NCBI GenBank assembly: GCA_002685255.1
Contig: NYWU01000004.1
Coordinates: 1-64,000, forward strand
Source of the DNA: Idiomarinaceae bacterium
GTDB lineage: Bacteria > Pseudomonadota > Gammaproteobacteria > Enterobacterales > Alteromonadaceae
Direction of reading: 5' to 3'
Length of the DNA: 64,000 nt
The translations under genes and the position numbers were made by a program. The notes beneath the pieces are model-generated. The model was not told where the DNA came from and ran no database searches. It was given only the letters and a program-made list of their open reading frames with translations. Positions 51,153 to 63,401 of this stretch are shown one piece after another (within the stretch, counting starts at the first letter, position 1; the number at the start of each line of letters is the position of its first letter).

Positions 51153-51202
51153 CCACGACCTTTATAAAGAAGCGTTCTGTTAACGAATTTTAGGAGTTCA
51201 CC

Positions 51203-51463
51203 TTGGCTAACATTAAGTCTGCTAAAAAGCGTGCGATTCAAGCCGAGAAAAATCGCCGCCATAATGCAAGCCGCCGTTCATTGATGCGTACTTACCTTAA
51301 ACGTGTAAACGCAGCCATTGAAAGCAAAGATAAAGAAGCTGCAACCTCAGCTTTAACCACAGTAACCCCATTATTGGACCGTTACGCAACTAAAGGCTTG
51401 ATCAGCAAGAACAAAGCGGCACGTCATAAGAGCCGTTTGAACGCTAAGATCCAAGCGCTTTAA
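51203..51463 (+). CDS. rpsT: 30S ribosomal protein S20
   Basis: S20 binds 16S rRNA early in small-subunit assembly. The 86 aa, Lys/Arg/Ala-rich protein begins [20 protein letters not shown] after the initiator residue. The start codon is TTG, preceded by TAGGAG. A UUG start is also found in E. coli rpsT, where it contributes to autogenous translational control, so it is probably functional rather than an error. A bidirectional terminator follows. Confidence 0.98.
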
Positions 51464-51548: not shown

Positions 51549-52598
51549 TTAGCTAAAGTCACCACGGGTAACCTTAGTATTCGCCTCAAGGTCTCGCGTT
51601 GCACGCTTACCAATGACCTCTTTAATGTGTTTAGGTGCGAGTCCATAGCCAGGGCGTACACTTCGTACATGTTCCGCAGTAATCAATTCACCTGCCGCAA
51701 GGTCTTTAACGAAATATAACGAGCGACGAAATTTCAAATTATCTTGCTCACTGGATTTGCGCCCGTAATCAACCTTTCCGAGTGCCTCCCATGCTGTTTT
51801 ACTATCGCGACACAAAGCGGCGAGTTCATTCGGTTCTAATGAGAAACTATCATCAGGCCCACCCCCCTCGCGGTCGAGCGTGAAGTGTTTTTCAATTAAT
51901 GCGGCGCCTAAAGCAACACTACAAATCGCGGTGGTATTATCTAATGTATGGTCGGATAATCCTGTCAACTGGCCAAAGCGTTGCTTCATATCAACTAGCG
52001 TCGATAAATTATAATCGGCGGCAGGCGCGGGATAGCCACTTACACAGTGCAACACCGCTAATTCTTTACAACCCGCCCGACGAGCAGCATCTATCGCATC
52101 TTGAATTTCTTCGGCATCTGCCATGCCGGTCGAAATAATCATCGGCTTACCCGTTTTAGCGACGTACTCAATAAGCGGAATATCGACTGCTTCAAACGAG
52201 GCAATCTTATAGGCGGGTGCGCCAAGTGACTCCAACAAATCAACTGCAGTCGGATCAAAAGGCGAACTAAACAGCGTAATGCCAACCTGCTTTGCATGAG
52301 CAAACAAGGCTTCATGCCATTCCCAAGGGGTATGCGCCCACTCATAGAGTTCATACAGTGTACGCCCTTCCCATAAGCCCTCATTGATACAAAAGTCAGG
52401 TTTGGACGAATCTAACGTAATGGTATCAGGGCGGTAGGTCTGAATTTTAAGCGCGTCGGCGCCAGCCGCTTTTGCCGCTTCAATAATTTTGAAGGCTTGT
52501 TTAATATCACCATTATGGTTTGCTGACATTTCAGCAATAATATAAGGCGGCGCATCATCGCCAATGCGACGCCCATCAATCTCAATGCTATTCGTCAT
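51549..52598 (-). CDS. pseI: Pseudaminic acid synthase PseI
   Basis: PseI condenses the 2,4-diamino-altrose derivative with phosphoenolpyruvate to give pseudaminic acid. The NeuB-family TIM barrel covers about 1-270 (YIIAEMSANHNGD, ADALKIQTYRPDTITLDS, KPMIISTGMAD, AVLHCVSGYPAP). A C-terminal SAF antifreeze-like domain lies at about 285-349 (LYFVKDLAAGELITAEHV). It is the last gene of the operon and overlaps the formyltransferase-like gene by 11 bases. Confidence 0.95.
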   Translation of the reverse strand: MTNSIEIDGRRIGDDAPPYIIAEMSANHNGDIKQAFKIIEAAKAAGADALKIQTYRPDTITLDSSKPDFCINEGLWEGRTLYELYEWAHTPWEWHEALFAHAKQVGITLFSSPFDPTAVDLLESLGAPAYKIASFEAVDIPLIEYVAKTGKPMIISTGMADAEEIQDAIDAARRAGCKELAVLHCVSGYPAPAADYNLSTLVDMKQRFGQLTGLSDHTLDNTTAICSVALGAALIEKHFTLDREGGGPDDSFSLEPNELAALCRDSKTAWEALGKVDYGRKSSEQDNLKFRRSLYFVKDLAAGELITAEHVRSVRPGYGLAPKHIKEVIGKRATRDLEANTKVTRGDFS

Positions 52599-53247
52599 CC
52601 ATCTTCTCCACGATCACTTTATACTGGTGCCCATGCAAGGAGAACCACGCTGGATAGCGGTTGGGATCGCACACCCGAATCAGGTCCCACTGCGCTGCTA
52701 TGCTTTTATCGGCATCTAACTGACTGTCTGAAGGCGTACGTTTGGGGTAATAGGTCGCCTGCTGTTCTGCCTGCGGTTGCGGTTGTGTTGCTAAAACATG
52801 GGCCACCGCCCAATCCATCAGCACTAATTCCATACTGAACAACGCTGCATTGATTTCATCCCACAGTGCATCTTTAGTCACGGGGAGTTGCAGTTGTTTA
52901 TAGATGGCCCCCTCGTCGATACCTTCGGCTGCATCGAGCAAGGTAACAGTCAGTTGGTCTTTGCCTTCTAGTAGACCCCAAATGTGGGGGCTCCAGCCAC
53001 GTCCTTTAGGTAAATCACTGGCATGTATGACCAAACTTCGCTGATAGCCAGAACGCACATCTGTGGTAATTTTTTCCACACAGGAAATCAGTAACAATAT
53101 ATCGCCACCGCGAAGGTGCTTTGCACGCTCAACAATCTCAACCTGATGCCCGTCTTCTTGTTGCTTGATTTTCCAGTCCTGCAACAGTGGTTGGATAGGA
53201 TGATTAGGATCGGAACAAAGTACACTCACTTGCAGTGCTTGCGTCAT
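52588..53247 (-). CDS. Formyltransferase-like sugar N-acyltransferase in the PseH position
   Basis: This 219 aa protein resembles the catalytic domain of 10-formyl-tetrahydrofolate-dependent formyltransferases. The family core VIHASDLPKGRGWSPHIW near residues 73-90 has the His and the LPxGRG loop, and DAAEGIDEG near 105-113 offers the catalytic Asp. The usual Asn two residues before the His is Val here. It sits between pseG and pseI, exactly where pseH is found in standard clusters, with 4- and 11-base overlaps. I infer that it N-formylates the C4 amine of UDP-4-amino-altrosamine, giving a 7-N-formyl pseudaminic acid. An inactive or different acyltransferase is possible. Confidence 0.72.
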   Translation of the reverse strand: MTQALQVSVLCSDPNHPIQPLLQDWKIKQQEDGHQVEIVERAKHLRGGDILLLISCVEKITTDVRSGYQRSLVIHASDLPKGRGWSPHIWGLLEGKDQLTVTLLDAAEGIDEGAIYKQLQLPVTKDALWDEINAALFSMELVLMDWAVAHVLATQPQPQAEQQATYYPKRTPSDSQLDADKSIAAQWDLIRVCDPNRYPAWFSLHGHQYKVIVEKMDDE

Positions 53248-54341
53248 AATAACCCCTTAATTGCCTCAATGACCCGGACCGTACCGCGACCATCGACTAA
53301 ATTAGCCGCATTCTGTGATAACAACTCCAAATAGTGAGACTGTTCAATGCAGTGTGCCAACGCGCTTTGCAGCGACCGACCAACCGCTACGCTGCCTCGG
53401 CAATGCACTAAAATCGCCGCTTGGCGGTTTTCAAGTACGGTCGCAATGGCGGCTTGGTTTTCGGCTAATACACACATCAATGTCGGCACACCTAAGCAAC
53501 ATCGTTCCCATGCACTACTACCCGCGGCGCCTATCGCCAAATCTGCGTGTGCTAAACGCTCCGCGACATTGGTTACCGCGACAGCAACAGACACAGTAAA
53601 GCGACTTTGATTAACCTGTTGTTGCAAACCATGCAGATGCGGATAAGCGCTACCGACTAAAATATCAATCTGACAGCCTGATGCTAAATTAGAGCACTCA
53701 AGTTCAGTGAGTACCGTTGTCGTGACATTGGTGGCATCGACGCCGCCAAGACTGACGACAATACGCTCAATATCGGTCACCCGCTGGCGTCGTTGAAGAC
53801 TCAGTTCGCGCCACTGCAGAAATTCATTGCGCAACAAACAATAGGGCGCGCCTACTAGGGCTTCGCTCTGAGCGAGTAGCAAATGTTTGTACATATCGAT
53901 GCTTCGCCCTACCGTGGGGTCGACCAATAAATCACATGGCAATTTCCGGTCAGCCAGATCATCGAGCGCAATGACATGAGACGGGCACTGCGTTAACGCG
54001 TCAAACCAACGCTGGTCAATGCCGTAATGATCAACCACCAATAGTGTTGGCTGTTCGCGGTCAATAATTACCTGCGTTTCTTGTGCGTCTAATACATGCC
54101 CGCCATACAACCATGCACTATGCGCTAAGTGGCTATCAGGCGTCTCCGACTGAATCGATAAAGCCTCGACTCGGTATCCTCGCTCAGAAATCAAGGTAAT
54201 CAAGTCACCGGTTTGTGGTCGGCAAATAAAGCAAATCTCGAAACCCTCAAGTACCAACGCGTCGGCGAGGGTTAAGCAACGCATCACGTGACCGCTACCG
54301 ATGTTAATCCCTGCATCGGCACGGATAACAGCACGTTTCAT
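53244..54341 (-). CDS. pseG: UDP-sugar hydrolase PseG
   Basis: PseG removes UDP from the diacylated diamino-altrose to free the substrate of PseI. The N-terminus has RADAGINIGSGHVMRCLTLADAL (split at residues 6-28), with the conserved G-x-GHxxR motif. IVVSLGGVDATN and AIGAAGSSAWERCCLGVP mark the GT-B-like C-domain. I choose the ATG at 54341, which overlaps the pseF stop as ATGA, giving 365 aa. A longer frame from 54368 is not needed. Confidence 0.93.
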   Translation of the reverse strand: MKRAVIRADAGINIGSGHVMRCLTLADALVLEGFEICFICRPQTGDLITLISERGYRVEALSIQSETPDSHLAHSAWLYGGHVLDAQETQVIIDREQPTLLVVDHYGIDQRWFDALTQCPSHVIALDDLADRKLPCDLLVDPTVGRSIDMYKHLLLAQSEALVGAPYCLLRNEFLQWRELSLQRRQRVTDIERIVVSLGGVDATNVTTTVLTELECSNLASGCQIDILVGSAYPHLHGLQQQVNQSRFTVSVAVAVTNVAERLAHADLAIGAAGSSAWERCCLGVPTLMCVLAENQAAIATVLENRQAAILVHCRGSVAVGRSLQSALAHCIEQSHYLELLSQNAANLVDGRGTVRVIEAIKGLL

Positions 54342-55036
54342 GGCTTTTGCATCGCTTTTTTCATCCATTCAGCACGCAACCAATCATCGGGCGTGTCGAT
54401 ATCTTGTACGCGAAAGCTGGGTAGCGGAAATAATCGTGTGCGCGCGGTAAAAAAGCTGTCTTGAGAAAACCAAGCGTCACGCTTGCCCCAATAAAATTGG
54501 CCGGCATCATGCCATGCTTTTGGCAGGTCTTGAGAACGTGTACTCGCATGCTCAGGCATGAACATCTCGACTAACCCCTCATCGTTGATGCGTACGGCGC
54601 GTTGGATCGGAAAGCTGAATTCGGTACCCGAAACGACAAAGTCGAGTGGCACCTTCGCATGAGAGAGCTCAGCAAAGCTGGCGGCCAGATCATCGGCCTC
54701 AACAAAGGGGGCAGTGGCATACAGACAGCACACATAGTCAACGTGACCATGTTCTGCTTCATAGGTTTCTATTGCATGGCGGATAACCGGTATGGTCGGT
54801 GTGTAGTCATCTGCTAAATCACTCGGTCGCATAAACGGCACTTGAGCGCCCGCGATACGCGCGACTTCGGCGATCTCATCATCGTCGGTAGAGACGACAA
54901 TATGATTAAAACATTGTGCCTCGCGCGCTGCTTCCACAGACCATTGCAACATCGGCTTGCCCGCAAACGGCTTTATATTTTTACGAGGAATACGTTTACT
55001 TCCGCCGCGTGCAGGAATCACCATCAGCACACTCAT
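54338..55036 (-). CDS. pseF: CMP-pseudaminic acid synthetase PseF
   Basis: PseF activates pseudaminic acid with CTP. The CMP-NeuAc synthetase family signature ARGGSKRIPRKNIKPFAGKPML is at the N-terminus (split at residues 8-29). VSTDDDEIAEVA and CCLYATAPFVEADDL follow. The 232 aa length is typical. It overlaps pseC by 4 bases and pseG by 4 bases. Confidence 0.95.
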   Translation of the reverse strand: MSVLMVIPARGGSKRIPRKNIKPFAGKPMLQWSVEAAREAQCFNHIVVSTDDDEIAEVARIAGAQVPFMRPSDLADDYTPTIPVIRHAIETYEAEHGHVDYVCCLYATAPFVEADDLAASFAELSHAKVPLDFVVSGTEFSFPIQRAVRINDEGLVEMFMPEHASTRSQDLPKAWHDAGQFYWGKRDAWFSQDSFFTARTRLFPLPSFRVQDIDTPDDWLRAEWMKKAMQKP

Positions 55037-56190
55037 GTTAAGACCTCATGCAAAGTCGCAATAACCTGTTGCTGATCGCTTTCAGTTAAACTAGCAAACA
55101 TCGGAATGCTAATCGCCTCACGGTAGTACGCCATCGCTTGCGGAAATTGGCCAGGCTTAAAGCCCAGTTGTTGATAGTAAGGTTGAGTATGTACCGGAAT
55201 ATAGTGCAAGTTAACACCGATACCTTTTGCCCTGAGCTCACTAAACACTTGGGCATGGCTTTTAGTCAACTTGTCGGTCTCTAACCGAATAATATACAGA
55301 TGATAACCCGAGTAGCTATCGGGGTGCTGCCAAGGCAGTCGTATGGGTAAATCCGCCAATTGCTCGTTGTAGTGCGCTGCAACGCGATGACGTGCCGCAA
55401 CAAATGCTTGTAAGCGTTGTAGCTGGCTCAACCCTAAAGCCGCTTGCATTTCAGTCATCCGATAGTTGTAGCCCAAGCTTAATTGTTGATAATACCAGTC
55501 GCCATCAGGTACTTGAGTCATCTGTTCAGGATCACGCGTAATACCATGACTGCGCGCCAAACGCATGCGCTCGGCCAGTTGCTCATCATTTGTGAGCGCC
55601 ATACCGCCCTCGGCAGACGTAATAATTTTAACGGGATGAAAACTGAATACCGTGATATCACTGTAACGGCCGTTGCCGATAGGCTCATCTTGATAACGCC
55701 CGCCCACAGCGTGAGATGCATCTTCGATAATCGCTATTCCGTAATCTGCGGTTAGATTACGGATGGCCTGCATTTCGCACGGCTGACCTGACAAGTGAAC
55801 GACGACGAGCACTTTCGGTAAAGTATGCGTTTGCGCGGCAGTCTCTAACTTCGCAGCTAGGGCTGAAACCGATAGATTATAAGTATTAGGATCGATGTCG
55901 ACAAAGTCGACCTCAGCACCGCAATAGCGGGCACAGTTTGCCGAAGCGACAAAGGTTACCGGCGTTGTCCACAGCCTATCACCGGGGCCTAAATCCAACG
56001 CCATACAAGCAATATGTAGTGCCGAAGTGGCGCTGTTGACTGCAACACCAAACTGCGCTCCAACCTGCGCTGCAAGTGCGGCTTCGAACTCAGGAACCTT
56101 GGGACCCTGAGTCAAAAAATCTGACTTCAACACCTCGGTTACAGCATCGATATCCGCTTGGGTAATATCCTGTCGTCCGTATGGAATCAT
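55033..56190 (-). CDS. pseC: UDP-4-amino-4,6-dideoxy-N-acetyl-altrosamine transaminase PseC
   Basis: PseC aminates C4 of the PseB product using PLP and glutamate. It belongs to the DegT/DnrJ/EryC1/StrS family of aminotransferases. The PLP lysine lies in VFSFHPVKIITSAEGGMAL near residue 185, with GVAVNSATSALHIA and AIIEDASHAVGG upstream. The 385 aa length is typical. Its ATG overlaps the pseB stop as TAATG. Confidence 0.96.
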   Translation of the reverse strand: MIPYGRQDITQADIDAVTEVLKSDFLTQGPKVPEFEAALAAQVGAQFGVAVNSATSALHIACMALDLGPGDRLWTTPVTFVASANCARYCGAEVDFVDIDPNTYNLSVSALAAKLETAAQTHTLPKVLVVVHLSGQPCEMQAIRNLTADYGIAIIEDASHAVGGRYQDEPIGNGRYSDITVFSFHPVKIITSAEGGMALTNDEQLAERMRLARSHGITRDPEQMTQVPDGDWYYQQLSLGYNYRMTEMQAALGLSQLQRLQAFVAARHRVAAHYNEQLADLPIRLPWQHPDSYSGYHLYIIRLETDKLTKSHAQVFSELRAKGIGVNLHYIPVHTQPYYQQLGFKPGQFPQAMAYYREAISIPMFASLTESDQQQVIATLHEVLT

Positions 56191-57188
56191 TAAATGCGCC
56201 CTATACTCTGAGCGTTTTGCTCAAGCCATGCTTGTAGCTCGCCGTCAGTCATCCACTCGGTGTTGTTGTCACTCGAGTAGACAAAGTTCTCAGCCACTTT
56301 AACACCATCCTTGATACGCCGAGGATCTTTGTGCCAATCATTAATCGCCGGTAGGATTTTGAAATGTTCCGGATACTCATAAGTATAAGGCGCATCCTCA
56401 AACCCTATCATTTGTTCATGTAGTTTTTCACCAGGCCGCACACCCACCGTCTCGAGCTCAGCTTCTGGCGCAACCACGCGTGCTAAATCAGTGACTTTCA
56501 TTGACGGTATTTTCTTAACGTAAATCTCGCCCCCGATCATATCTTCAAATGCGTGCCACACGAGCTCAACGCCCTGCTCTAGCGAAATCATGAAGCGAGT
56601 CATGCGATCATCGGTAATAGGCAACTTGCCTTGATCGCGGATGGACATGAAGAAAGGAATCACCGAGCCGCGAGAGCCCATCACATTACCATAACGCACG
56701 ACAGAAAAATGGGTTTCGTGTCCGCCAGCATAAGCGTTACCGGACACAAATAATTTGTCCGATGCCAACTTTGAAGCACCGTACAAATTCACCGGACTGC
56801 TCGCTTTATCCGTGGATAAGGCAACACATCCTTTAACCTTTTTATCAATACACGCATCGATGAGGTTCATCGCGCCATTGACATTGGTTTTGATGCATTC
56901 AAATGGGTTGTATTCGGCGGTGGGCACAATCTTAGTGGCGGCAGCATGCACAACATAATCAACACCGTCTAGTGCACGATAAAGACGGTCACGGTCTCGC
57001 ACGTCACCGATAAAAAACCGCAACCTATCATCATTAGGAAATAGCTTTGCCATTTCCCATTGCTTCATTTCATCTCTAGAAAAAACGATGATTTTCTTAG
57101 GGTTATACTTTTCCAGTGTCATAGGAATAAATTTATGACCAAAGGACCCAGTGCCACCGGTAATCAAAATGGTTTTATTGTTAAACAT
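56190..57188 (-). CDS. pseB: UDP-N-acetylglucosamine 4,6-dehydratase (inverting) PseB
   Basis: PseB performs the first step of pseudaminic acid synthesis, dehydration and C5 inversion of UDP-GlcNAc. The Rossmann motif ITGGTGSFGHKFIP lies at residues 9-22, and the active-site region ALSTDKASSPVNLYGASKLA shows the Lys and Tyr of the extended SDR family. The 332 aa length is typical. It is the first gene of the operon, with GGCGGAGC just before the ATG. Confidence 0.97.
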   Translation of the reverse strand: MFNNKTILITGGTGSFGHKFIPMTLEKYNPKKIIVFSRDEMKQWEMAKLFPNDDRLRFFIGDVRDRDRLYRALDGVDYVVHAAATKIVPTAEYNPFECIKTNVNGAMNLIDACIDKKVKGCVALSTDKASSPVNLYGASKLASDKLFVSGNAYAGGHETHFSVVRYGNVMGSRGSVIPFFMSIRDQGKLPITDDRMTRFMISLEQGVELVWHAFEDMIGGEIYVKKIPSMKVTDLARVVAPEAELETVGVRPGEKLHEQMIGFEDAPYTYEYPEHFKILPAINDWHKDPRRIKDGVKVAENFVYSSDNNTEWMTDGELQAWLEQNAQSIGRI

Positions 57189-57406: not shown

Positions 57407-58033
57407 TTGAGTGAGCCGACTTCAATTTGTATATTGAATTACGGCTCAGGTAACGTCGGTTCCGTTGCTAATATTTGTCGCACATTATGCGATGAGGTTA
57501 CGGTTTCTAACGCGCCTGAAGCCATAAAATCCGCGACTCATTTAATCTTACCGGGCGTAGGTGCCTTCGACCGTTCTCTACAAAAAATGCGGGAGCGCCT
57601 GCCACTCGAATTAATTGAGCAACAGGTCAAGGTCGACAAAAAGCCGCTGATGGGTATTTGCGTGGGCCTTCAAGTGCTCTGCGATGCCGGAACCGAAGGC
57701 GGCAAAACGGCCGGACTCGGTTGGTTAAACGGGACGGTTGAGCGACTCGAGAGTCACGGTTTGCACCTGCCTCATATCGGCTGGAATACCGTTCACTTTG
57801 CCGAAGATTCGTGGTTTGCACCTGCTTTTGCTGAACCCAAAGAGTTTTACTTTGTGCATAGCTTTGCTTTAGCTAAAAGCGCTGATGCCAGCGCACACAG
57901 TGACTATGGCTCACAATTCGTCGCAGCGGTTGAACGCGGTAACTTATTTGCCGTGCAGTTTCACCCAGAAAAAAGCCAAGCGGCCGGCCGCACTTTATTG
58001 AGTCGCTTTTTGGAGTACCGTACCGATGCTTAA
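57407..58033 (+). CDS. hisH: HisH-like glutamine amidotransferase subunit for sugar amidination
   Basis: This 208 aa class I glutaminase resembles imidazole glycerol phosphate synthase HisH. The nucleophile lies in MGICVGLQVLCD near residue 83, and the His-Glu pair in AVQFHPEKSQ near 183. The context is not histidine biosynthesis. Such HisH/HisF pairs adjoin PseA/WbpG amidotransferases and supply ammonia to them. The start is a TTG at 57407 with GGGAG upstream. It overlaps hisF by 8 bases. Confidence 0.9.
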   Translation: MSEPTSICILNYGSGNVGSVANICRTLCDEVTVSNAPEAIKSATHLILPGVGAFDRSLQKMRERLPLELIEQQVKVDKKPLMGICVGLQVLCDAGTEGGKTAGLGWLNGTVERLESHGLHLPHIGWNTVHFAEDSWFAPAFAEPKEFYFVHSFALAKSADASAHSDYGSQFVAAVERGNLFAVQFHPEKSQAAGRTLLSRFLEYRTDA

Positions 58034-58841
58034 GAAACGTGTCATTCCCGTTTTGTTGTTACGCAACGGGTACTTAGTACAAAGTAAAAAATTCAGTAAG
58101 TACCAAAATATCGGTAATGCTATCTGGGCGGTGCGTCGGATGAGTGAATGGGGTGCAGATGAACTGATCTATCTGGATATTACTCAAGATGGGCAGTACG
58201 ACGCTAAACGTGACGATTTACGTCATGGCAACCCGACTTCTATCGAGGCTATCGTACGCGAGATGTCGCAGTCAGCTTTCATGCCCATGACCGTGGGTGG
58301 CGGAATTCGGACATTATTAGATATTGAAAAACGCTTGCAGTGGGGCGCTGACAAAGTTTCGTTAAACACATTGCTGGCCGAGGCTCCTAACCTCGTCGAA
58401 GAAGCCGCCAAAGAATTTGGCTCACAGTGCATTGTGGCCTCCATTGATAGCAAGCGAGTAGACGGTCAAGCCATTGCGTTTACCCATGGCGGTCAAACGA
58501 GCACTGAATGCACCACGCTCGATTGGGCAAAACGTGCTGAACAACTCGGCTGCGGTGAAGTGTTGTTAAACGACATTGATGCCGACGGACAGCAAACAGG
58601 TTACAACATTGACCTTATCGCAGAGGTGACGCAAGCACTCAGCATTCCTGTGATTGCGCTCGGTGGCGCAGGCGAGTGGTTTGATTTCGAAGATGTGCTG
58701 AGCGATACCCAAGCATCTGCCGTGGCGGCCGCAAACCTATTTCATTACCGCGATCAAAGCGTGTATTTAGCAAAAAAACATTTATTTGACAGTGGCTTCG
58801 CCGTTCGTAAGCCAGAACTACAACCTTTTATAACTAAGTGA
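58026..58841 (+). CDS. hisF: HisF-like ammonia-channelling subunit for sugar amidination
   Basis: This 271 aa TIM-barrel protein resembles HisF (RVIPVLLLRNGYLVQSKKF, MPMTVGGGIRTL, VIALGGAGEWFDF). True histidine HisF begins with a stricter VKGVNF-type motif, and here YLVQSKKFSKYQNIG fits the LPS/flagellin-modification subgroup. It probably forms an ammonia tunnel with the upstream HisH-like protein for the downstream amidotransferase. It ends 7 bases before the next start codon. Confidence 0.9.
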   Translation: MLKKRVIPVLLLRNGYLVQSKKFSKYQNIGNAIWAVRRMSEWGADELIYLDITQDGQYDAKRDDLRHGNPTSIEAIVREMSQSAFMPMTVGGGIRTLLDIEKRLQWGADKVSLNTLLAEAPNLVEEAAKEFGSQCIVASIDSKRVDGQAIAFTHGGQTSTECTTLDWAKRAEQLGCGEVLLNDIDADGQQTGYNIDLIAEVTQALSIPVIALGGAGEWFDFEDVLSDTQASAVAAANLFHYRDQSVYLAKKHLFDSGFAVRKPELQPFITK

Positions 58842-58848
58842 GTCAACC

Positions 58849-60057
58849 ATGGTTAATGAGGCAAATTACTGTAAAGTCTGTGTCGCCCCCGCCCACGCGG
58901 TTAATATGACATTAGATGAAGATAATGTCTGTTCGGCGTGCCGTGTCGCAGAACAATTCGAACAGTTATCGGATGATCACTGGGCACGTCGCAAAAAACG
59001 CTTCGAACGCTTGGTCGAAAGTATCAAAAGTCAGAATGAAGGCGACTATGACTGTTTGATACCGGTCAGTGGTGGCAAAGATAGTTACTATCAAATCCAT
59101 AAAATGGCGACAGAATATGGCTTAAAACCTCTACTCGTCACCTATCATGGCAACAATTACTTACCCGAAGGCGACTATAACCGTGACCGTATGCGTCACG
59201 TATTCGACGCCGATCACTTGATGGTCGGCCCCAGCGTATCGGTTTTGAAAAAGATGAACCGCTTAGGCTTTAAGATGATGGGTGATATGAACTGGCACGC
59301 CCACTGCGGCATTTTCACGGTGCCTATTCAGGTCGCTGTGCGTTACAAGATCCCATTAATTATTTGGGGCGAGACCGCGTGGGATATTTCAGGCATGTAC
59401 GACCCTGACGACTTTGTCGAATTCAGCGCGCAAATGCGCCATGACAACGCGCTGCGCGGTTATGAATGGTACGACTTTCTCGACGATGAACAAGACCCGC
59501 TGAGCAGTAAAGATCTCAACTGGGCTAAGTATCCATCGGATGAGGAAATTCTTGAGGTCGGCGTTCGCGGCATTTATGTGGGCAACTTCTTTAAATGGGA
59601 TCCCAATGCGCATACGCAACTGGTAAAAGATCAGTACGGCTGGAAAGAGAAAGAAGAACCGTTTGAACGCACGTATCGCAAGATGTCGAACCTCGACGAC
59701 CGATACGAAAATGGTATCCATGATCTACTCAAATTCGTCAAATTTGGTTATGGGCGCGCCACCGACCACGCATCAAAGGATATCCGCACAGGCTATATGA
59801 CCCGTGATGAAGGTATCGAGATGGTACGCAAATATGACCATGTGGTGTCATCCGACTTGTATTACTGGCTTGACTATGTCGACATGACCGAGGATGAATT
59901 CTGGCGCATTGCAGATGGCTTTAGAGACCCGCGCGTTTGGTGGATAGAAGATGGACAGTGGCATAAATATAACCTCTGGGGCGGCAGTTCAGCTTACGGC
60001 AAGGTGTATTTACCTGAATCAGAGTGGGCAAAATACTTACGCAAGGAGCCTGCATGA
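58849..60057 (+). CDS. pseA: N-acetyl sugar amidotransferase, PseA/WbpG family
   Basis: This is a 402 aa ATP-dependent amidotransferase of the adenine-nucleotide alpha-hydrolase superfamily. An N-terminal CxxC...CxxC zinc-like region (residues 8-32) precedes the PP-loop LIPVSGGKDSYYQI near residue 72. Relatives are PseA, which makes the acetamidino form of pseudaminic acid in Campylobacter, and WbpG of Pseudomonas O-antigen. With the HisH/HisF-like partners it likely converts an N-acyl group to an amidine. The stop overlaps the next ATG as ATGA. Confidence 0.9.
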   Translation: MVNEANYCKVCVAPAHAVNMTLDEDNVCSACRVAEQFEQLSDDHWARRKKRFERLVESIKSQNEGDYDCLIPVSGGKDSYYQIHKMATEYGLKPLLVTYHGNNYLPEGDYNRDRMRHVFDADHLMVGPSVSVLKKMNRLGFKMMGDMNWHAHCGIFTVPIQVAVRYKIPLIIWGETAWDISGMYDPDDFVEFSAQMRHDNALRGYEWYDFLDDEQDPLSSKDLNWAKYPSDEEILEVGVRGIYVGNFFKWDPNAHTQLVKDQYGWKEKEEPFERTYRKMSNLDDRYENGIHDLLKFVKFGYGRATDHASKDIRTGYMTRDEGIEMVRKYDHVVSSDLYYWLDYVDMTEDEFWRIADGFRDPRVWWIEDGQWHKYNLWGGSSAYGKVYLPESEWAKYLRKEPA

Positions 60058-61265
60058 AGACGTCAATTCCATTCAGTCGTTTTGCCGATATCTCTCGCCA
60101 TGCGGGTCAGCGTCCAATCGCCCTATGGGGGGCGGGCAATATCTGCACCAAAACGATACGTCGTTTACCCGATAGTGACATCGTCATATGCGATAACAGC
60201 GCTAATATGTGGGGAGGCGAACAGGAGGGTCACCCCATCATCAGCCCCGAGTTATTTCAAAAGGAATACACTGATCGCTACGTGATTATTTGTACAACCT
60301 CATTTGCGGAAGTATCCGAGCAACTCAGTGATATGGGGTTAACCGCGCAAAAGGACTTTATCGTCAGCCCCATTTTGAATGACTTACGCATCATTGATGA
60401 GCTCGAAACCATTCAATGCCAACTGTTAGTCAGCTCAGGCGCACAACCCTCAGACGATCCAGAAGCAGGCGGTGGTCTTTACCAACTCGACGTTAATGGG
60501 ACTGAGTGGCACTATAAAAAAGTACTATCGGGATGCTGCCACTGTATCATCGAAGTTGATAATTATCTTTACACAGTCGACGACGAACGTGGCATTTTGC
60601 AGCTCGATCGTGACTTTAATGTTATTCGTAACCAACCCTTGCCGACCAAAAGCCGTGGCCACGGCATCGCGTATCATGCAGCTAGCCAGTGCTTTTTTAT
60701 TGCCTGCAGCTTGTTAGATGCGGTATTGGTTTACGATCGCGATTTAAGCCTGCAACGCAAAATTCCATTGTCCGTAAAAGCAGGCCGCGATGAGGGGCCC
60801 TTTCACCATACCAATGACTGCTGCATCGTCGGTGATAGCTTATATGTCTCCATGTTCTCGGAAACGGGTAACTGGAAACGCGATATCTTTGATGGTGCAG
60901 TCATTGAGTTTGATATTGTCACGGGTGAGCGTATTGGAACGCCTATCCGCGATTTATGGATGCCGCACAACATTCAGTTTATCGACGGCTGCCTCACTGT
61001 GCTCGACTCACTGCGTGGTGGTTTGCGTCAAAACAACGCATCGGTGATCGGCGAGTTTGCTGCCTTTACGCGCGGGCTTGCCTTTAATGGTCACTTGTTC
61101 TTTGTCGGTCAAAGCCGTAACCGCAACTTCTCTAAGAATGTCGGTGTGTCAAAAAATATTTCAATAGATACCGGCGTCGTCATCTTTGACCCAGAAACCA
61201 AAGTATCGCGGTTTTTACAGTTGCCTTCTAAACTGTCCGAAATTCACGGCCTATTTTTACTGTAA
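60054..61265 (+). CDS. Fusion of nucleotide-binding-like module and DUF4915-like beta-propeller
   Basis: I do not recognise a defined function. Residues about 15-120 look Rossmann-like (RPIALWGAGNICTKTIRRL, then DIVICDNS and RYVIICTTSF). Residues about 150-403 resemble a beta-propeller of the DUF4915/TIGR03032 group (LWMPHNIQFIDGCLTVLDS, SRNRNFSKNVGVSKNI). There is no signal peptide. I start at the ATG at 60054, with AAGGAG 6 bases upstream, overlapping the pseA stop. The operon suggests a role in flagellin sugar modification or transfer. Confidence 0.68.
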   Translation: MKTSIPFSRFADISRHAGQRPIALWGAGNICTKTIRRLPDSDIVICDNSANMWGGEQEGHPIISPELFQKEYTDRYVIICTTSFAEVSEQLSDMGLTAQKDFIVSPILNDLRIIDELETIQCQLLVSSGAQPSDDPEAGGGLYQLDVNGTEWHYKKVLSGCCHCIIEVDNYLYTVDDERGILQLDRDFNVIRNQPLPTKSRGHGIAYHAASQCFFIACSLLDAVLVYDRDLSLQRKIPLSVKAGRDEGPFHHTNDCCIVGDSLYVSMFSETGNWKRDIFDGAVIEFDIVTGERIGTPIRDLWMPHNIQFIDGCLTVLDSLRGGLRQNNASVIGEFAAFTRGLAFNGHLFFVGQSRNRNFSKNVGVSKNISIDTGVVIFDPETKVSRFLQLPSKLSEIHGLFLL

Positions 61266-61272
61266 ACTTAGA

Positions 61273-61301
61273 CAACAACCCAGCTAAGTGCTGGGTTGTT
61301 G
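61273..61301. terminator. Perfect 12-bp hairpin spanning the maf stop, between convergent genes
   Basis: CAACAACCCAGC at 61273-61284 pairs with GCTGGGTTGTTG at 61290-61301 around TAAGT. The hairpin overlaps the maf stop codon (61286-61284, minus strand) and follows the DUF4915-like gene. T-runs are weak on both strands, but stem length makes a bidirectional terminator or mRNA-end stabiliser likely. Confidence 0.7.
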
Positions 61302-63401
61302 CTCATCAACTCGGAAATTTTTGCGCACCTTAGGTTTATAGCCTCGTGTGCACTTCTCTAGCCACGCTGTTTTGAGATCTTCCCGCGCTTCCAGCACAAA
61401 CCGACGCCACACGTCGAGCGCCTTTTTAAAGTGAGTTAAGCACTGAGCTTCGTCATTGGCGTTGTAAAGCAATACCACCAATGGACACTGAAAATACAGC
61501 ATCTCGCCTTCCAGCACATAATGCAGATGAGAGTAACGCGTTTGTCGGTGACTATATAAATAGCGCGCTTGTCGGCGCAAGTTATCCAATGCCTCAGCAC
61601 GGCTAGTGATGGGCTCTTCACTGATAGCAATCAAATGGTCGCAGATTTCGTCGTAACGATCGAACGCCATATAACGCTCGAAATGCTCAAACTGGAAGTG
61701 ATTAAATAACTCGTCCTTGATGTAATCCACCACCTGCGACTTATCATGCTGTTGTGGTTCTGGTAGCACGTGCTCAGGCTTAAGTGGCAATGCATGGTTG
61801 ACCTTAGCGCCCTCGCCGACGTTATAGCAGTGAATATCAGCAAATTTAGGTAAACCCAACAAACGCCCCATCTGCTGACACGACATCGCCAAGAAGTTCG
61901 ATGACATGACCGTTCCACCCAGGTTACCCGCTAATTCGTGCCGTGCATCGTGAGGTTTCCAATCTTTCAGCGCGCCCTGATAGTAGGCAGAATCTTTTGA
62001 ATGGTGACGACCGTCAGCCGAGTAGCCATTATCAACACCAAACATGTAGATCTCTTTAAAGCCCATATGTGCCGCATAAGACAATGCGGTGTTGGCGACC
62101 AACGGGTTACAAAACGGCAAATAACGCAGTGCCTGTTGAGCCTCATTGAGCAACACGTAGTTGAGCAAATCACCGCTCGCATCAATGCCCTTACCGGCCA
62201 TCCCCACCCACTGATACAGCGGCACCACATCCGGGTAAATCAGGTTCATGGTCAGCAAGTTGAGCTTGCTGTAAGTCTCTTTGGGTAATGATTTGAGTAG
62301 CACATCGTAGGTGCTTTTGGGCCGTTCAACGAGCGTATGAAAGTCGGGCACAATATCGTGTTTCAACAGCGTTTGTAACGCCGTTCCCGCTGCGATAATA
62401 AGCGCGTGTTCTTGGGTGTCTTTAATGAACTCAATACTTTCATCAAGCGACGGACCATTGCCAACGACATAAACGGGATAGTCGCGATATCGGTTGCTGT
62501 CTTCTGTTTTGTGCTTAAGTAGATTCATGCCCTGCTTGGCATTTTGTACTGTGTGCGCCAGTGCTGTTGTTGCATCATTATAAAACCCGTAGCCACCATG
62601 CAGTTCAAACAGTCGCATGAAAAACTCACGTAACAAGGTGGCGTTTTCTTTTGAGGGATAATGTTGATAACAGAAGCACTTTGTCAGCGAGAACACACCA
62701 ATATCTTGGCTTACACGGTATAAATCATCGATAAAAGTCTGATACGAGGCGCCGAGCTGGAAGGTCAGCACACCCCGCTGTTCATCAACTTGCTCAATAA
62801 TGCTGCGCCAATCCGTACAATAGAGACTGCAATAGAAGTTCTCAAAACTCGGTTCAATCAAATAAATGTAATCAAATTGAACCCGCTCCATGAGCATCGG
62901 GATGTGGTAACCCAAGCCAACGCCAAACACGACAGCGGTAGGAAAGCGATCCGGCAACGGCGCGAGCTTCTCTACAGCTCCCGCTTCGGCAACCGCTTCA
63001 CCCAGCTGTTTTAAATAGCGTGCATGGACACGGGTATCATCCTCTGGCACCTCAGCATACTTAGCGAAGTCGATGTGGTTTACCATCGGCTTGGCGAGCT
63101 GCTCCTCGACCTGACGGGCCACCTGCGCAATAGGATCATCACCGTACAGCGGATAGCCAGTCACGTGTTCCTTGATATTGCCCTGACCAGAAGCGGTTAC
63201 GAACAACTCAAGTGGTTTATCGGAGCTAAACGCCTCAATACTATCAGCGATTTTGGGGTAGAACTTTCGAAAGGCAGCGAGGTTGTCACGAAACCGCTGT
63301 TCGGCGTGTTCGGCAAATACTTGCTCGCGTTCAATTTGGCGGTCAGATGCATCTTTGAGTTGTTGCATCATGCCTTTGATTTGTTGCTGTGTACTGTCCA
63401 T
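61284..63401 (-). CDS. maf: Motility accessory factor Maf, flagellin glycosyltransferase
   Basis: Maf proteins transfer pseudaminic or legionaminic acid to flagellin in the cytoplasm. The 705 aa protein has an N-terminal region (about 1-270), the central MAF_flag10/DUF115 domain at about 300-480 with VYVVGNGPSLDESIEF and IIAAGTALQTLL, and a helical C-terminal domain. EIYMFGVDNGYSADGRHHSKDSAYY, split at residues 448-472, matches the GT-A-like core. It sits beside pseudaminic acid genes and fliT/fliS, as expected. Confidence 0.93.
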   Translation of the reverse strand: MDSTQQQIKGMMQQLKDASDRQIEREQVFAEHAEQRFRDNLAAFRKFYPKIADSIEAFSSDKPLELFVTASGQGNIKEHVTGYPLYGDDPIAQVARQVEEQLAKPMVNHIDFAKYAEVPEDDTRVHARYLKQLGEAVAEAGAVEKLAPLPDRFPTAVVFGVGLGYHIPMLMERVQFDYIYLIEPSFENFYCSLYCTDWRSIIEQVDEQRGVLTFQLGASYQTFIDDLYRVSQDIGVFSLTKCFCYQHYPSKENATLLREFFMRLFELHGGYGFYNDATTALAHTVQNAKQGMNLLKHKTEDSNRYRDYPVYVVGNGPSLDESIEFIKDTQEHALIIAAGTALQTLLKHDIVPDFHTLVERPKSTYDVLLKSLPKETYSKLNLLTMNLIYPDVVPLYQWVGMAGKGIDASGDLLNYVLLNEAQQALRYLPFCNPLVANTALSYAAHMGFKEIYMFGVDNGYSADGRHHSKDSAYYQGALKDWKPHDARHELAGNLGGTVMSSNFLAMSCQQMGRLLGLPKFADIHCYNVGEGAKVNHALPLKPEHVLPEPQQHDKSQVVDYIKDELFNHFQFEHFERYMAFDRYDEICDHLIAISEEPITSRAEALDNLRRQARYLYSHRQTRYSHLHYVLEGEMLYFQCPLVVLLYNANDEAQCLTHFKKALDVWRRFVLEAREDLKTAWLEKCTRGYKPKVRKNFRVDEQQPST

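Follow-up and report, generated by a model that had tools for sequence, protein, structure and literature searches.

PseH (TIGR03585), the acetyltransferase of the pseudaminic acid (Pse) pathway, is a member of the GNAT family that uses acetyl-CoA as its donor, and both its fold and its donor are unrelated to those of formyltransferases. Several enzymes of the latter kind act on related sugars. The formyltransferase domain of ArnA acts on a uridine diphosphate (UDP)-linked 4-amino sugar, and PseJ of Anoxybacillus kamchatkensis reportedly formylates the UDP-4-amino sugar of the pseudaminate pathway, giving rise to a 7-formamido derivative. The 217-residue chains of Protein Data Bank (PDB) entries 6ci2, 6ci4, 6ci5 and 6edk carry the name PseJ, and the title of 6edk contains N10-formyl-tetrahydrofolate. 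Here, a 64,000-nucleotide stretch of contig NYWU01000004.1 from an Idiomarinaceae bacterium (assembly GCA_002685255.1; hereafter the window) is analyzed, in which a pse operon holds, in the PseH slot, a gene for a putative sugar N-formyltransferase of 219 residues, here termed X. With a probability of about 85%, X has replaced PseH at the third step of this pathway and, as the acyltransferase there, formylates the amino sugar that PseH would presumably have taken as its substrate.

The biology proposed is of a known kind, PseJ being the precedent. X shares with PseJ its fold, a similar length and a location in a Pse cluster that lacks PseH, but the two are not specifically close: a profile built on X scores PseJ at 34 bits, compared with 85.6 bits for PDB entry 1zgh and about 66-70 bits for ArnA. 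Entry 1zgh, deposited as 'methionyl-tRNA formyltransferase' of Clostridium thermocellum, is the closest PDB entry to X by both profile score and structural Z, and its aligned stretch likewise reads Val-x-His instead of Asn-x-His. ArnA has the same fold as X but differs in possessing a longer N-terminus, a second domain and the Asn-x-His motif (N102 in the protein of locus L012), where X has Val-x-His.

As noted in the first-pass annotation of this DNA, 7-N-formyl pseudaminic acid does occur in some bacterial glycans; it has been reported in Pseudoalteromonas distincta KMM 638 (PMC3210612), Pseudomonas aeruginosa O7 (PMC12795346) and the pilin of P. aeruginosa 1244 (PMC6222762). The P. distincta operon was not located, and the accessible part of PMC9966250 does not describe the gene. 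Shewanella oneidensis flagellin, considered as further support, was rejected, its sugar being reported as a 274-Da mono-N-acetyl Pse (PMC3765264). According to the accessible portion of a 2016 study on Geobacillus flagellin glycosylation islands, types II-IV contain Pse genes without PseH, and both type III strains carry the formyltransferase gene fmt2 (PMC5109656). By their description, these islands resemble the window in lacking PseH and, in some types, in encoding a formyltransferase. In that portion, formyltransferases are treated as agents of further modification; only fmt3 and FdtC, which belong to another sugar pathway, are suggested there to stand in for an acetyltransferase. A literature search, outside the scope of which most subscription papers lay, returned nothing relevant on PseJ by title and nothing on 5-N-acetyl-7-N-formyl pseudaminic acid (Pse5Ac7Fo). 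As far as searched, the new elements are the X lineage, an active site without Asn across that lineage, and, in a single genus, the swapping of PseH for X.

The operon is a tightly packed minus-strand run (57188 to 51549) in the order PseB, PseC, PseF, PseG, X and PseI. All six open reading frames (ORFs) lie where the first-pass annotation had placed them, and its five Pse names were confirmed by NCBIfam, since PseB, PseC, PseF, PseG and PseI each exceed their equivalog cut-off. PseI is also the single NeuB-family (PF03102) match in its own genome in a profile search. Junctions overlap by 1 base (PseB/PseC), 4 bases (PseC/PseF and PseG/X) and 11 bases (X/PseI). The PseF/PseG overlap comprises 31 bases from the first ATG of PseG or 4 bases from an internal ATG (codon 10, 54341), so the annotated range of 1 to 11 bases holds for the internal start and fails for the first. 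The GC (guanine plus cytosine) content of the operon equals that of the window, giving no compositional sign of transfer.

X matches the Formyl_trans_N family PF00551 with 36 bits (cut-off 26.1; E 7e-9), whereas scans of Pfam and NCBIfam found no GNAT or PseH match in it. No NCBIfam cut-off is passed by X in a scan of that library, the Fmt profile TIGR00460 giving 54.4 bits (cut-off 201.5). AlphaFold2, supplied with a 69-row alignment, models a full-length formyltransferase fold with a predicted local distance difference test (pLDDT) score of 96.5 (37.3 from the single sequence), and the best PDB matches of this model are formyltransferases and their relatives. The N-terminal 71 residues alone gave no significant match among PDB sequences. 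Structure prediction and profile search, both suggested in the first-pass annotation, thus agree with its description of X as formyltransferase-like and not GNAT. A true PseH elsewhere in the genome, which would speak against the replacement, was also looked for: in this assembly, 98.5% complete, the best TIGR03585 match scores 30 bits (cut-off 93.1). Five weak GNAT matches (20.6-30 bits) all lie on other contigs than X. PF00551 matches three proteins of the genome, identified from their ORFs as PurN-like, Fmt-like and X.

As annotated, X retains the catalytic His (H75), the LPxGRG motif (79-84) and the Asp (D111), and has Val (V73) at the position of the canonical Asn. H75 and D111 are invariant in 84/84 X sequences of a first alignment and in 85/85 of a second one that included outgroups, the X of the window being counted in both; S77, P80, G84, G113 and R191 are likewise invariant in the second. 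Two positions ahead of the catalytic His, none of these 85 sequences has Asn: 79 have Val and the others Ile or Leu, while the Fmt and PurN of the same genome and two ArnA proteins all keep the Asn (4/4), along with the equivalents of H75, P80, G84 and D111. Because the substitution extends to the entire set, Val at this position is, judging from the alignment, a family trait, and we propose that X would catalyze its reaction through the invariant His75 and Asp111, with no need for the canonical Asn. The first-pass annotation had left the choice between a variant active site and a different donor; the family alignment favors the former. A different acyl donor, with the loss of Asn making room for an acetyl or larger group, would fit the same 85/85 substitution, but X keeps the complete formyltransferase fold together with the catalytic Asp and the HxSxLPxGRG-type loop, and 7-N-formyl Pse is a known natural product that calls for no other donor; this explanation appears highly improbable.

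Even less credible is the idea that X is a decaying or moonlighting duplicate of Fmt acting outside the sugar pathway. Its weak similarity to the Fmt profile would allow this, but the genome already has an Fmt-like gene, X forms a clade of its own and its ends overlap PseG and PseI here, in an order that recurs in many other loci (see below). Moreover, X is under purifying selection between the two Idiomarina copies, with a ratio of nonsynonymous to synonymous divergence (dN/dS) of 0.12.

Comparison within the genus reveals what else may occupy the position between PseG and PseI. PseG is present in 7 of 19 genomes and X in 2 of the 19, one of which (G009) contains a locus near-identical to that of the window. 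Three others hold PseH in this slot (G004, 130.3 bits; G006, 170.6 bits; G008, 168.6 bits; cut-off 93.1), followed in G006 and G008 by a short-chain dehydrogenase/reductase gene. G014 has a PseG-GNAT fusion (L026, 9124-10722) that scores just 29.3 bits with the PseH profile. In G010, the slot (L025, 6413-9563) contains three unrelated genes, for an aminotransferase, a protein resembling ATP-grasp ligases and an amidohydrolase, with no recognizable acyltransferase; these genes may perhaps give an aminoacyl-type substituent. Since the GGDEF and MurJ genes on the left flank of G010 are 96-98% identical to those of the window, it is the pse locus that changes while this flank stays.

Several side observations concern the two X-bearing Idiomarina. 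Synonymous divergence (dS) between them is 0.066 for X compared with 0.16-0.31 for the other five operon genes, and their PseG proteins are just 91% identical (window 52588-54368 versus L021), which can be read as a sign of recent local exchange. Just downstream of PseI, G009 has a prolyl-oligopeptidase-like gene (L021, 11518-13446) that is absent from the window, where the neighbor of PseI is an ORF resembling ribosomal S20 (assigned by eye; plus strand, about 51200-51460). Divergence of PseG as a sign of adaptation was considered and dropped: the PseG of the window is 44% identical to that of the X-bearing locus L048, the same as to those of PseH-type operons.

A sample of 295 genomes of the order, of which 118 have PseG, 13 have X above 200 bits and 22 have PseH over its cut-off, allowed the two acyltransferases to be compared more broadly. 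X lies within 6 kb of PseG at 11 of 109 PseG places, at 10 of them within 200 bases. Among the matches listed, PseH occurs within 6 kb at 0/11 PseG places with X and at least 39/98 without X (Fisher p 0.007), the latter count being a lower bound with matches listed down to about E 8e-12; when only PseG over its cut-off is considered, the corresponding values are 0/11 and at least 30/87 (p 0.017). Considering that the sampled genomes are related to each other, these p values serve as a guide only. The 109 places were entered by hand from the 118 PseG-bearing genomes, second PseG copies being dropped and nine genomes with weak or fragmentary PseG being left out (G320, G045, G134, G240, G336, G280, G318, G260 and G294), five of which (G134, G240, G280, G318 and G260) have a PseH match nearby. 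PseH profile matches at E up to 1e-10 were found in 126/295 genomes, and the listed ones that were not entered lie, by eye, on other contigs or far from PseG. One of the three PseH matches of G277 is unlisted, but in the 5 kb around the X of this genome (L116) a GNAT profile of our own detected no GNAT. Matches to X at E up to 1e-15 extend to 46 genomes, 33 of which have no 200-bit match (60-80 bits, many of ArnA length) and were left out of the X count. A GNAT domain that is part of a fusion may be missed by the PseH search: at 34/98 PseG places without X, the open frame measures at least 496 residues, perhaps PseG-GNAT fusions like that of G014. At the 11 X-bearing places, nine frames are at most 384 residues long, and the longer ones of G144 and G160 have no room for a C-terminal GNAT.

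Beyond the order, a scan of GTDB genome contigs gave 284 pattern matches, 233 of which are stretches that encode X relatives; the best 80 of these were kept. By their record titles, these 80 comprise alpha-, beta- and gammaproteobacteria, Myxococcota, Bacteroidota, Verrucomicrobiota and Clostridia, as well as metagenome-assembled genomes (MAGs) of Kaiserbacteria and Magasanikbacteria type, a cyanobacterium and archaeal MAGs. Phage and plasmid records gave no match to X. Among 78 loci with a separate X ORF, the exact order PseG-X-PseI is found in 50, and a WbuX homolog lies within 8 kb in 19. Two Verrucomicrobia MAGs encode X as the C-terminal part of a PseG protein (L090, 6741-8636; L096, 6714-8570), whose PseG part scores 205.7 and 233.6 bits, respectively (cut-off 153.55); such fusions support a role of X in the pathway of the PseG substrate.

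Replacement of PseH, as claimed in the first-pass annotation, is therefore supported by the position of X, the lack of a PseH over the cut-off in the genome, the PseH found in the same slot of sister species, the order-wide sample, the PseG-X fusions and the predicted fold. Nevertheless, a number of observations weigh against this interpretation. No member of the sampled X lineage has the Asn of the Asn-His-Asp triad, so the textbook mechanism is unproven for X, and the score of 34 bits to PseJ means that function cannot be transferred by orthology. PseG, GNAT and X are joined in one protein in an archaeal MAG (L086, 6447-8687) and in the cyanobacterium Baaleninema (L097, 6462-8660), the GNAT domains scoring 53.3 and 62.0 bits in Pfam and just 30.8 and 25.3 bits with the PseH profile; X is thus not always exclusive of a GNAT, and our confidence in the replacement was slightly lowered by these fusions. 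Within 5 kb of X, a GNAT is also present in 12 of 89 other X loci (a set that includes at least one duplicate, L119 probably being L038, and from which L086 and L097 are excluded, their X lying inside a PseG fusion), although none of the 13 GNAT ORFs concerned reaches 93.1 bits with the PseH profile. The two strongest are an intact GNAT of 80.4 PseH bits that lies 177 bases from X, on the other strand, in an Akkermansia MAG (L084), and a PseH-like gene in two frames (89.3 and 33.4 bits) directly before X in a Thiocystis MAG (L093, 258-833); the latter may represent either a sequencing error or the decay of a PseH whose replacement stands next to it. In the order sample, 59 PseG places have neither X nor PseH nearby, so an undetected PseH does not prove a substitute; furthermore, the X-bearing genome G242 gave no PseG match, and in G336 X and PseG lie on different contigs.

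A second formyltransferase family near these operons, here called FT2 and related to 1zgh, also lacks the Asn (Val, Cys, Ile or Leu in 21/21). X and FT2 each form one clade in a quick tree that included 45 of the 85 X sequences and left their sister relation unsettled. Both families reside in nonulosonate clusters and can coexist, but FT2 is distinguished by a PIG-L deacetylase, which in 20/21 FT2 loci lies no more than 5 kb from the reference gene, the exception being L028, where FT2 stands at a contig end. FT2 is accompanied by X in 17 loci, by a PseH-like GNAT without X in L112-L114 and by neither in L115, counts that are biased by the choice of L112-L115 for a non-X formyltransferase near PseG. 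FT2 and PIG-L recur as a pair in the nonulosonate clusters of L112, L113, L114, L116, L120 and others. This pattern fits a scheme in which N5 (the 2-amino group) would be the target of FT2 and the deacetylase, and N7 (the 4-amino group) that of X or PseH, making FT2/PIG-L a likely 5-N-formyl module. Against a strict rule stand four X loci with PIG-L but no FT2 (L090, L096, L098 and L102) and a PIG-L near the PseG-GNAT-X fusion of L097.

These exceptions bear on a further explanation, namely that X formylates another position or at another step, for example the 2-amino group to give a 5-N-formyl product, with the 4-amino group either remaining unmodified or receiving its acyl group from a GNAT whose gene lies elsewhere. 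The four PIG-L loci would agree with it, as would the PseG-GNAT-X fusions, particularly that of L097, where X could serve the other amino group, and the five weak GNAT matches of the genome; 5-N-formyl legionaminic acid is moreover reported for Halorubrum PV6 (PMC6137143). However, no PIG-L was found within 5 kb of the X of the window, the best of the genome's GNAT matches, on other contigs, stays below a third of the PseH cut-off, X and PseH share one slot in sister species, and FT2, with its near-constant PIG-L and its co-occurrence with either PseH-like GNAT or X, fits the N5 role better. This explanation is therefore considered unlikely, although less so than the other two alternatives, and formylation of the 4-amino group by X in place of PseH is preferred.

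Next to the operon, a divergent cassette (57407-61265) encodes two subunits that we take to be HisH- and HisF-like from sequence resemblance, a WbuX-type amidotransferase and a further protein, followed by a Maf protein (Table 1). From such a cassette, a pseudaminic acid amidinated to the acetamidino or formimidoyl form would be expected, with a residue of 301.127 Da by our own calculation if one formyl group is present. Just outside the window, beyond Maf, locus L111 shows FliS-, FliD- and FlaG-like ORFs and three flagellin-like ORFs (named by eye), and because of this gene order the setting is probably flagellin glycosylation.

Table 1. Genes of the pse operon and of the adjacent cassette in the window
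Feature	Coordinates	Strand	Evidence
PseI, pseudaminic acid synthase	51549..52598	-	TIGR03586 507.7 bits, cut-off 340.25
X, putative 219-residue sugar N-formyltransferase in the PseH slot	52588..53247	-	H75, D111 and LPxGRG kept; canonical Asn is V73
PseG, UDP-sugar hydrolase	53244..54368 (likely true start 54341)	-	TIGR03590 265.1 bits, cut-off 153.55
PseF, CMP (cytidine monophosphate)-pseudaminic acid synthetase	54338..55036	-	TIGR03584 306.2 bits, cut-off 205.7
PseC, aminotransferase yielding UDP-4-amino-4,6-dideoxy-L-AltNAc	55033..56190	-	TIGR03588 573.8 bits, cut-off 423.5
PseB, UDP-GlcNAc 4,6-dehydratase (inverting)	56190..57188	-	TIGR03589 535.6 bits, cut-off 407.75
HisH-like glutaminase subunit, amidination cassette	57407..58033	+	ORF; 98% to the G009 copy
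HisF-like subunit, amidination cassette	58026..58841	+	ORF
WbuX-type N-acetyl sugar amidotransferase, PseA-like role proposed	58849..60057	+	TIGR03573 328 bits, cut-off 203.2
DUF4915/TIGR03032-like protein	60024..61265	+	PF16261 40.8 bits, cut-off 35
Maf flagellin glycosyltransferase, likely CMP-sugar user	61284..63401	-	PF20157 169.5 bits, PF01973 109.3 bits

On this basis, a complete pathway can be proposed. PseB and PseC would generate UDP-4-amino-4,6-dideoxy-L-AltNAc, the 4-amino group of which X would formylate from a one-carbon formyl donor, most likely N10-formyl-tetrahydrofolate. PseG would then remove UDP, PseI would condense the sugar with phosphoenolpyruvate, and PseF would activate the product to CMP-5-acetamido-7-formamido pseudaminic acid. 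The HisH-HisF-WbuX cassette would probably turn one amide into an amidine, and the Maf protein would probably place the sugar on the adjacent flagellins. An extended scheme, to which we assign somewhat less than an even chance, regards X and FT2 as nonulosonate-dedicated, Asn-free formyltransferases distinct from PseJ, which together with PseH and PIG-L would constitute an exchangeable N-acyl code: X would give 5Ac7Fo, PseH with FT2/PIG-L would give 5Fo7Ac (Ac, acetyl; Fo, formyl), and X with FT2/PIG-L would give 5Fo7Fo. Under this scheme, the flagellin of this Idiomarina would carry the amidinated N-formyl pseudaminic acid with the residue mass calculated above.

Taken together, this marine Idiomarina bacterium appears to decorate its flagella with a sialic-acid-like sugar that bears a formyl instead of an acetyl group, by means of a widespread, little-studied enzyme family that has no name of its own in NCBIfam, despite relatives in 233 GTDB stretches. 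If this interpretation is correct, it would become possible in many bacteria to tell from gene content whether pseudaminic acid is 7-N-formylated or 7-N-acetylated, and the X family would represent a natural test of the purpose of the catalytic Asn in formyltransferases.

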